From the NCBI GenBank assembly GCA_949751835.1, contig CATKHK010000044.1, positions 186,001-250,000 on the forward strand: DNA of 64,000 nucleotides, in the 5' to 3' direction. Under the pieces are notes generated by a model. It was not told where the DNA came from and ran no database searches. It saw only the letters and a list, made by a program, of their open reading frames with translations. The number at the start of each line of letters is the position of its first letter. Position 1 is the first letter of the stretch. A program made the position numbers and the translations under genes. The stretch is from Blepharisma japonicum (lineage: Eukaryota; Ciliophora; Heterotrichea; Heterotrichida; Blepharismidae). This document shows positions 22,490-26,966 of this stretch, one piece after another.

Positions 22490-22555
22490 ATGAAAGTCAG
22501 CGATCTTGGTGGAAAAGATTCATCAATGAATCAGAGTAAAATATCATCAGTATAA
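22490..22555 (-). ncRNA. SNORD24: Box C/D snoRNA, U24-like (28S Cm guide)
   Basis: Fourth snoRNA of a minus-strand cluster. Boxes in order: C TGATGA (22549-22544), D' CTGA (22534-22531), C' TGATGA (22525-22520), D CTGA (22500-22497). Directly before D is the 12-nt guide CCACCAAGATCG (22512-22501), whose last 11 nt pair with the universal 28S stretch GAUCUUGGUGG; as I recall, the same guide-plus-D-box string occurs in human U24. By the D+5 rule the methylated base is the C of GAUC, equivalent to yeast 25S Cm1437. The D' guide (ATATTTTACT) resembles but does not exactly match the second U24 guide. Ends are approximate. Confidence 0.9.
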
Positions 22556-22563
22556 AGGTATAA

Positions 22564-22627
22564 ATGGGTCAGAAACGAGGAATTGTCATCATTGACAGGG
22601 TAATTCTAGAAAAGTCATCAACTTAAG
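22564..22627 (-). ncRNA. SNORD45: Box C/D snoRNA, U45-like, double guide for 18S
   Basis: Third snoRNA of the cluster. C TGATGA (22620-22615), D' CTGT (22598-22595), C' TGATGA (22591-22586), D CTGA (22572-22569). Guide 1, TCTAGAATTACC (22610-22599), is antisense to the universal 18S stretch GGUAAUUCUAGA; the D'+5 position is the second A of GGUAA, equivalent to human 18S Am159 (U45 site). Guide 2, AATTCCTCGTT (22584-22574), is antisense to 18S AACGAGGAAUU; D+5 is the G of ACGAGG, equivalent to yeast 18S Gm1572 (snR57 site). Two guides matching two known sites in one 64-nt unit make chance very unlikely. Combining these two specificities in one RNA differs from human and yeast as far as I recall. 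Confidence 0.92.
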
Positions 22628-22633
22628 AGAATA

Positions 22634-22698
22634 TGAATCAGGGCAGTATGATGTCGTCAACATTCTGAAGCAGAACTGAACAGTTGTCATCAGTTTGT
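22634..22698 (-). ncRNA. SNORD38: Box C/D snoRNA, U38/snR61-like (28S Am guide)
   Basis: Second snoRNA of the cluster. C TGATGA (22692-22687), a variant D' box CAGA (22667-22664), a weak C' TTGACGA, and D CTGA (22641-22638). The guide CAGTTCTGCTT (22678-22668) before D' is antisense to 28S AAGCAGAACUG. D'+5 falls on the A of AAGCA, equivalent to yeast 25S Am1133, the target of snR61 and human U38. The stretch before the D box has no rRNA partner I can recall. The D' box deviates from CTGA, which lowers confidence slightly. Ends are approximate. Confidence 0.85.
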
Positions 22699-22705
22699 GG
22701 TTTAT

Positions 22706-22774
22706 AAAATCAGAGAGCATTGATTTTTCATCTGGATGCAGTTGGTAATTCCAGCGTAAGAATCATCACCATTT
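22706..22774 (-). ncRNA. SNORD77: Box C/D snoRNA, U77/snR77-like (18S Um guide)
   Basis: First snoRNA of the cluster in transcription order. C GTGATGA (22769-22763), D' CTGC (22741-22738), C' AGATGAA just after, D CTGA (22713-22710). The guide GCTGGAATTACC, two bases before D', is antisense to the universal 18S 530-loop stretch GGUAAUUCCAGC. D'+5 is the U of GGU, equivalent to yeast 18S Um578 (snR77) and human Um627 (U77). The D' box is a variant of CTGA. The second guide region (before D) has no partner I recognise. It lies 13-20 bases from the next snoRNA, so the four are probably cut from one precursor. Confidence 0.87.
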
Positions 22775-22803
22775 AATTATTATAATGAAATGTAATATGG
22801 ACT

Positions 22804-22834
22804 TTAGACTCCATAAACCTAATGGTGAGTCTAA
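22804..22834. repeat. Hairpin just upstream of snoRNA cluster
   Basis: TTAGACTC (22804-22811) pairs with GAGTCTAA (22827-22834); the stem can be lengthened by CAT/ATG pairs with a bulge. It lies about 30 bases upstream of the first snoRNA on the cluster's strand. A processing signal in a snoRNA precursor is one possibility; the sequence alone cannot show it. Confidence 0.5.
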
Positions 22835-25386: not shown

Positions 25387-25714
25387 AGTATAATCATCAG
25401 ATTAGTCGTATAATAAATAGATTTTAAATAATAATTAATGACTTTATAAATAAATAAACAATATTTATTTTATATAATTCAATACAGATTTATATTTTAA
25501 TCTTATCTATATCTTAGACATCCTTTCATGAATTTAAAAATTTCAAATATGATGGCTTTATTTGTTTTTTAATAAAAAATCAATCAAATTTTGCAAATTA
25601 TTCTAAACAAATCCTTGAATTCCTCAATCTGGGCGAAAAAGAAAACATTAACATGATACAGTTTTTCTCTAGTAAATCCAGATTTTTTGGAAAGTATTTT
25701 CAGATAATCTAAAT
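25387..25714. other. AT-rich spacer upstream of haemoglobin 1
   Basis: About 330 bases without an ORF. AATCTGG (25626-25632) is the exact complement of CCAGATT (25678-25684), a weak 7-bp long-range stem just upstream of the first haemoglobin gene. Nothing else stands out. Confidence 0.4.
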
Positions 25715-26071
25715 ATGGCAACGAATTTCGAAAGAGTTGGTGGACACGATGCAGTGGTGGCTCTCATTGATGGATTATACTCAAAGATTCTGGCAAACCC
25801 AACCACAGCAGCTGCATTCGTTGGGAAAGATGTGAATCATGTCAAGGCCATGCAAGTTGAGTATTGGTCTGAATGGTTAGGAAGTGGAACACCTTACACC
25901 GGAAGGTCAATGGCAGACGGCCATAGAGGACTTAACCTCTCCAAAGAGCAATTTGATTTGGTTGCTGGGTTCCTGTTGGAGACTTTAAGAGAACTTCATC
26001 TCGACGAAGCATATGTCAATGCAGTTATGGGGCATGCAGGCTCCTTAGAGAGTGAAATAATTAACCTCTAA
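25715..26071 (+). CDS. Truncated (2-on-2) haemoglobin, group I, copy 1
   Basis: 118-residue truncated haemoglobin of the kind known from Paramecium and Tetrahymena. Landmarks: the GGHDAV N-terminal helix, Tyr-22 (B10, stabilises bound ligand), Phe-35 (CD1, packs on haem), the GSGTPYTGR turn, and His-70 (F8, proximal haem ligand) in DGHRGLNLSKEQFD. Likely roles in oxygen binding or nitric oxide detoxification come from the family, not the sequence. First of three consecutive haemoglobin genes, same strand and equal length; most similar to copy 2. Both Trp-rich spots use TGG. There is no intron, and the start is the only plausible ATG. Confidence 0.93.
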   Translation: MATNFERVGGHDAVVALIDGLYSKILANPTTAAAFVGKDVNHVKAMQVEYWSEWLGSGTPYTGRSMADGHRGLNLSKEQFDLVAGFLLETLRELHLDEAYVNAVMGHAGSLESEIINL

Positions 26072-26609: not shown

Positions 26610-26966
26610 ATGGCATCTATTTACGAGATAGTTGGTGGACACGCAGCTATAGTTGCCGTCATAGATGGACTCTATGCTAAGATCCTCGCAAACCCAGTGA
26701 CAGCTGCTGCTTTTGTCGGAAGAGATGTTAACCACACTAAAGCAATGCAAGTTGAGCTCTTTTCTCATACTCTTGGTAGTGGTACTCCATACACCGGAAG
26801 AGAAATGATCCCAGTTCACACTGGACTTCACATCACCAAGGAGCAGTTCGATTTAGTGGCTGGATTTTTATTGGCTACTTTAAACGAGCTTCATGTGGAT
26901 CAAGAAATCATCAACACTATCATGACTTTTGCAGCTTCATTGGAGCCGCAGATTATTAACCTTTAA
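26610..26966 (+). CDS. Truncated haemoglobin, group I, copy 2
   Basis: 118-residue paralogue of copy 1: GGHAAIVAVIDGLYAKIL, AAFVGRDVNH, GSGTPYTGR and VHTGLHITKEQFDLVAGF. The haem-pocket residues Tyr-22, Phe-35 and His-70 are all kept. It is clearly the closest relative of copy 1, differing mainly in the E helix (LFSHTL against YWSEWL) and the last helix. Tandem duplication is the obvious origin. Promoter and UTR sequences are not obviously shared, so the duplication is not very recent. Confidence 0.93.
   Translation: MASIYEIVGGHAAIVAVIDGLYAKILANPVTAAAFVGRDVNHTKAMQVELFSHTLGSGTPYTGREMIPVHTGLHITKEQFDLVAGFLLATLNELHVDQEIINTIMTFAASLEPQIINL

Follow-up and report, generated by a model that had tools for sequence, protein, structure and literature searches.

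Four clustered box C/D snoRNA units in an intergenic spacer of Blepharisma japonicum: a probable polycistronic gene for rRNA methylation guides

In Dictyostelium, several box C/D genes lie close together between protein genes as bi- and tri-cistrons (described in parts of PMC8817022), and in the ciliate Tetrahymena the adjoining box C/D genes TtnuCD32 and TtnuCD33 each carry an snRNA-like USE of their own (passages of PMC6315972). Table 2 of PMC5344495 lists the yeast sites Um578 (snR77), Am1133 (snR61), Gm1572 (snR57) and Cm1437 (U24), human 18S Am159 is in print (excerpts of PMC10164566 and PMC8797249), and the Um578 guide is called snR77 in yeast, HBII-135 in human and AtsnoR77Y in plants (a section of PMC3511168). 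Blepharisma stoltei reads TGA as Trp and has introns of 15 and 16 bp (portions of PMC9942806). No report on Blepharisma or heterotrich snoRNAs was found among the matches listed in a literature search whose coverage mostly excluded subscription papers.

The window analysed here is a 64,000-nt stretch of Blepharisma japonicum DNA (contig CATKHK010000044.1, positions 186,001 to 250,000). On its minus strand, at about 22490-22775, four successive box C/D units were found, every one with C, D', C' and D boxes (Table 1). The preferred reading, given a probability of about 90%, is an intergenic gene that stands alone and encodes four box C/D snoRNAs, probably transcribed as one RNA and guiding rRNA 2'-O-methylation. 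An RUGAUGA-like C box near the 5' end and a CUGA D box near the 3' end are present in 4/4 units, both here and in a second copy described below; in the window units the base 5' of TGATGA is not always a purine. The D' and C' boxes of all four window units were assigned by eye and include the variants CTGC, CAGA, CTGT, AGATGA and TGACGA. Spans from C to D are 59, 55, 52 and 53 nt in units 1-4, and distances from each D box to the next C box are 17, 17 and 19 nt. With about 5 nt of flank added at each end, these figures fit the lengths of 64-69 nt and spacings of 5-20 bases that a sequence-only reading of the stretch had given for four minus-strand C/D units in a spacer, and the units themselves are confirmed by their boxes and by the shuffles reported below. 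Close grouping between protein genes is shared with the Dictyostelium bi- and tri-cistrons, from which the window cluster differs in having four units, spacers of 17-19 nt and its own start motif. A possible 6-bp hairpin lies between D' and C' of unit 4 (22517-22532, minus strand), with a sequence identical in the second copy. Folding of the whole cluster region was no better than that of shuffles (z -0.39, scored over the region as a whole).

Table 1. Features of the window cluster; each TGATGA C box starts at the higher limit of its unit and each CTGA D box ends at the lower limit. Target bases are given in yeast or human rRNA numbering, of which we take the target stretches to be the equivalents; pairs are Watson-Crick.
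Feature	Position	Strand	Details
Upstream block TCTAAAGTCCATATTA, putative promoter or leader element	22793..22808	-	ends 24 nt before the first C box
TTATAAT, part of start motif TATAAT-N6-12-GG-(N)-TGATGA	22779..22785	-	motif scan
Unit 1, snR77/snoR77Y-type box C/D snoRNA	22710..22768	-	C 22763-22768, D' CTGC 22738-22741, C' 22728-22733, D 22710-22713
Unit 1 guide GCTGGAATTACC	22744..22755	-	18S 530-loop; D'+5 = yeast Um578; 12 pairs, Rfam SSU consensus; target GGUAAUUCCAGC (consensus), +5 = U
Unit 2, snR61/U38-type box C/D snoRNA	22638..22692	-	C 22687-22692, D' CAGA 22664-22667, C' TGACGA 22654-22659, D 22638-22641
Unit 2 guide CAGTTCTGCTT	22668..22678	-	28S; D'+5 = yeast 25S Am1133; 11 pairs, own LSU copy; target AAGCAGAACUG (own copy), +5 = A
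Unit 3, double-guide box C/D snoRNA (Am159 + snR57-type guides)	22569..22620	-	C 22615-22620, D' CTGT 22595-22598, C' 22586-22591, D 22569-22572
Unit 3 D' guide TCTAGAATTACC	22599..22610	-	D'+5 = human 18S Am159; 11 pairs, own SSU copy; target GUAAUUCUAGA (own copy), +5 = A
Unit 3 D guide AATTCCTCGTT	22574..22584	-	D+5 = yeast 18S Gm1572 (snR57 site); 11 pairs, Rfam SSU consensus; target AACGAGGAAUU (consensus), +5 = G
Unit 4, U24-type box C/D snoRNA	22497..22549	-	C 22544-22549, D' 22531-22534, C' 22520-22525, D 22497-22500
Unit 4 D guide core CACCAAGATC	22502..22511	-	D+5 = yeast 25S Cm1437; 11 pairs, Rfam LSU consensus (13 in the second copy, L002); target GAUCUUGGUGG (consensus), +5 = C

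The second copy, L002, lies on contig C57, where 319 bases match the window cluster with 81% identity. Identical bases in the pairwise alignment of the two amount to 24/24 in C boxes, 16/16 in D', 23/24 in C' and 53/56 in guides (the 3 missing being gaps), against 56/83 of the other within-unit bases and 31/53 of those in between-unit spacers. The D boxes agree at 12/16 because the alignment puts that of unit 2 out of register; a CTGA is present there in L002. Before unit 1, the block TCTAAAGTCCATATTA is identical at 16/16 positions while its flanks diverge, and identity is 19/26 over the other upstream bases and 7/13 downstream. With boxes and guides kept and spacers not, the pattern is what selection on guide RNAs would leave. 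In unit 3 of the second copy (L002:1688-1736) the D' box is 2 nt closer to the guide than in the window copy, and the D+5 rule therefore predicts U161 instead of A159, in what we take to be human 18S numbering.

Four units were reached in 0/2000 dinucleotide shuffles of the window region and in 0/2000 of L002 (mean units 0.37 and 0.34). Stretches of 285 nt with at least two units numbered 5 of 2236 over both strands of the window, all at the cluster. A scan of 285,840 bases (window plus loci, with 8 overlapping loci excluded and some other overlaps retained) returned 62 single units and three runs of at least two units, namely the window cluster, L002 and L079. The last of these (G000:C14, about 139.8-140.1 kb, minus strand) is an unrelated cluster of two C/D units (265-317 and 333-390), whose guides match the organism's own 18S over 11 nt at GGAAGGAGAAG near the 3' end and over 10 nt at AGGAAGGCAG; its second unit was matched by Rfam snoU83 at 26.4 bits (cut-off 50). 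This pair is an independent example of the same C/D anatomy and supports the reading of the window. L079 had entered the set through a 2-mismatch match to an snRNA element, which lies more than 1 kb past the pair and inside a coding frame on the other strand. At 415-529 the Tetrahymena H/ACA family TtnuHACA9 scored 29.3 bits (E 0.0081, cut-off 100), a lead that L079 may perhaps include an H/ACA RNA after its C/D pair.

As an exact 16-mer, the upstream block was found in the genome only before unit 1 of the window cluster and of L002. With up to 2 mismatches it was found at 97 places, against 126 for a reversed control. Thirty of the 97 were inspected by eye over 220 nt downstream; two were the clusters and 28 were without an snoRNA cluster, the unit scan of those 28 gave no run of two units, and Rfam at gathering level gave nothing in 20 of the 30 loci, both clusters included. 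A role as a general snoRNA promoter was rejected for the block at this similarity, on the lower count than control and the 28/30 places lacking a cluster. The motif TATAAT-N6-12-GG-(N)-TGATGA is present at the first unit of each of the three clusters (window, L002, L079) and nowhere else in the loci scanned, and the looser TTATAAT-N6-12-TGATGA has one further place, in L057; having been read off its own three sites, the motif is a description and not a test.

A GTCCCATAACAAAAAA-like element starts 57-58 nt upstream of U2 (3/3) and of two U3 genes scoring over cut-off; a third, sub-cut-off U3 match is without it, and a related sequence lies upstream of U6. The loci concerned (L035-L037 for U2, L050 and L051 for U3, L038 for U6) have in common a RTCCCWTAAYAAAA-like upstream element, about 57-58 nt before U2/U3, with a TATA-like stretch near -30; we take this element to resemble the plant USE. 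Searched for across the genome, the snRNA/U3 element turned up at 98 places and its control at 63. Five of the 30 fetched were U2 and U3 genes, and Rfam at gathering level, run on 19 of the other 25 loci and the U6 locus, returned only U6 (L065, L069, L072-L074 and L076 were outside this search). At the window cluster and L002, unlike at the adjoining genes TtnuCD32 and TtnuCD33 of that other ciliate, no snRNA/U3-type element was found with up to 2 mismatches.

Several units at 17-19 nt spacing, and a block and start motif that precede unit 1 alone, support the polycistronic gene proposed by the sequence-only reading, of which the single transcript would be the product. Four neighbouring snoRNA genes transcribed separately, each from its own promoter as inferred for TtnuCD32 and TtnuCD33, would have a ciliate precedent, with upstream elements 98 and 118 bp before the respective mature RNAs (passages of PMC6315972). 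The D-to-C gaps of the window cluster are too short for such an element plus leader, and the confinement of block and start motif to unit 1 also argues against this arrangement, although there might be internal promoters of some other kind; it is considered unlikely. Polymerase III would be expected to terminate at the T runs of the two copies (four TTTT in the window copy and, in L002, a TTTTT between units 1 and 2); no such run lies over the L079 cluster.

For pairing, the only full-length rDNA found in the assembly (L004:415-5479, G000:C102) was used together with Rfam consensus rRNA. L004 carries changes at strongly conserved 18S/28S positions; differing from conserved rRNA at several places, it is probably not working rRNA and is probably a diverged or dead copy. 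Intact rRNA was not found in the assembly, and an exact search for a conserved 18S motif gave 0 places. Pieces of the LSU 3' end or SSU 5' end, 49 to 201 bases long, were found at 37 further genome places; on contigs of known length they lie at or within 1 base of the contig end, many beginning at contig base 1. This suggests an assembly broken by rDNA copies at many sites.

Five guides have about 10 nt or more of antisense directly before D or D', with the +5 position on the equivalent of a base known to be methylated. In both copies they form 10-13 Watson-Crick pairs with the better-fitting rRNA (Rfam consensus or own diverged copy) and 6-11 with the worse. The D+5 pairing agrees with the five target bases proposed earlier, the equivalents of yeast 18S Um578, 25S Am1133, human 18S Am159, yeast 18S Gm1572 and 25S Cm1437. 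We take U45 to be the guide of human 18S Am159. Other pairings are given in a section of PMC3511168, with U45a at Am512 and RF00279 (SNORD45 in the Rfam search) under U44 at Am166. Among the guide names offered by the sequence-only reading, snR61 for Am1133, snR57 for Gm1572 and U24 for Cm1437 agree with print; the Um578 guide is snR77/HBII-135/AtsnoR77Y and not "U77". In alignment to the organism's own rDNA, a check proposed there, unit 2 and the D' guide of unit 3 form 11 pairs with the diverged copy (each forms 8 with the Rfam consensus, then a mismatch), and at the U24 site the unit 4 guide forms 6 (7 in L002), with T and not C as the +5 base.

For transcription as one RNA, the polymerase, RNA ends, processing and methylation, we infer the following course. 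One transcript would probably start just upstream of unit 1, most likely made by RNA polymerase II, and would be processed into four RNAs, each about 62-69 nt long. Each snoRNA would be bound by box C/D proteins (fibrillarin and partners), the stretch before D or D' would base-pair with 18S or 28S rRNA, and the base opposite the fifth position from the box would receive a 2'-O-methyl, the predicted bases being the five named above.

Unit 1 shares with snR77/AtsnoR77Y/HBII-135 the 530-loop guide, the target base (18S Um578) and the C/D anatomy, and differs from snR77/snoR77Y in its score below the Rfam cut-off, its gapped alignment to the family model and its CTGC D' box. Unit 2 has the guide, D' position and target (25S Am1133) of snR61/U38 and is set apart by a score below cut-off, D' CAGA and C' TGACGA. 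Unit 3 carries the guides and +5 bases of snR57 and of the Am159 guide, but has both in one RNA and no good Rfam match. Unit 4 resembles U24/SNORD24 in the D-box guide CACCAAGATC before CTGA (25S Cm1437); no sign of the second U24 guide (Am1449/Gm1450) before D' was seen among the best antisense matches of at least 9 nt listed against the own diverged LSU, at most 8 for each copy.

Guides were also compared with shuffles. Against the own diverged rDNA, perfect antisense of 10 nt was found for 2 boxes in the window (reached by 105/1000 shuffles) and two in L002 (82/1000), and antisense of 9 nt for 2 boxes in the window (544/1000) and six in L002 (8/1000). On this rDNA alone, guide numbers are not clearly above those of shuffles. 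After Rfam consensus rRNA had been added at three target sites, five boxes per copy were matched at 10 nt (0/1000 shuffles) and five in the window copy at 9 nt (31/1000), a control that is biased because the consensus pieces were picked for being the targets. The unbiased support is the four-unit shuffle test, the Rfam ranking and the conservation between copies.

Rfam at gathering score gave 0 matches in the window. Permissive thresholds were applied to 2 kb around the window cluster, and each of the top three by bits among the 16 matches listed fell on the unit of its type: snosnR61 on unit 2 (29.9 bits against a gathering score of 45, E 0.051), snoR77Y on unit 1 (28.6 against 52, E 0.01) and SNORD24 on unit 4 (22.7 against 41, E 0.99). 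Part of unit 3 gave a weak SNORD45 match (16.5 bits, gathering 42, E 9.7). Taken alone, the SNORD24 match of the window copy is weak, since 20.4 bits are reached by a match outside the cluster and since by E-value SNORD24 stands behind Afu_300 (0.75, on unit 1) and sR3 (0.98). In L002, again with permissive thresholds, the top three by bits of 7 were snosnR61 (34.8), SNORD24 (29.3, E 0.011) and snoR77Y (25.8); SNORD100 also fits unit 4 there (24.3 bits, E 0.016). Best bits over both copies are below gathering for snoR77Y (28.6/52), snosnR61 (34.8/45), SNORD24 (29.3/41) and SNORD45 (16.5/42), and the units are therefore named by target site and not filed as Rfam members. The family search that had been suggested for the units thus placed the right families highest by bits at units 1, 2 and 4, with all scores below the Rfam cut-offs. 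Higher scores of L002 for two of the three families would suit a pseudogene cluster in the window, dead duplicate of a working copy on C57; against this, boxes and guides are intact in both copies and snoR77Y scores higher in the window copy (28.6 vs 25.8 bits), and such decay is judged very unlikely.

Divergent genes flank the window cluster: downstream, an RRM gene that runs the same way as the cluster, with its first ATG at about 22067, and on the other side a PX-domain gene in divergent orientation, whose first ATG is at about 23067. The neighbours of L002 are a C48 (Ulp1) protease gene upstream, pointing away, and a convergent frame without Pfam match downstream. The neighbours being different, there is no sign of a host gene common to the two or of a coding-gene intron; both copies lie between coding frames (unannotated UTR introns are possible), and the earlier statement that the cluster is not intron-hosted holds. 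Frames near the cluster are open when TGA is read as Trp. An intron test by frame rescue in the window gave 4 cases at 15 nt against 2 for a control motif, with no clear peak from 12 to 30 nt, and so did not confirm the 15-nt introns given by the sequence-only reading. Elsewhere in the window, two adjoining globin genes (Pfam Bac_globin) are found on the plus strand at 25676-26071 and 26610-26966. A protein-coding exon, for which a 131-codon frame runs open through the window cluster with TGA as Trp and a 101-codon open frame spans L002, was rejected as having next to no likelihood, because indels of 1, 2 and 7 bases between the copies break the frame and their translations fail to match (at best 16.9 bits, E 0.051) though the DNA is 81% identical.

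The free-standing snoRNA gene thus preferred holds RNAs that are ordinary and guides sites that are widely conserved; its interest is in arrangement and start signals. Added here to the sequence-only reading are the second copy, the 16-base block, L079, the common start motif, the lack of an snRNA/U3 element at two copies and the 2-nt guide shift. It is suggested, tentatively, that in a lineage whose introns are thought too small for snoRNAs, guides may come from dedicated intergenic polycistrons (C/D, possibly C/D with H/ACA) with a start signal of their own, TATAAT-N6-12-GG directly before the first C box (and TCTAAAGTCCATATTA further up in one family), and not an snRNA/U3 element; and that after duplication of a cluster a guide can be displaced by 2 nt, in which case the paralogue may methylate a neighbouring base. 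The three clusters, the candidate start signal and the five target bases are concrete sequences for testing snoRNA gene organisation in such ciliates, and the locus illustrates how conserved rRNA methylation guides may be retained in a genome that lacks the space for intron-hosted snoRNAs.
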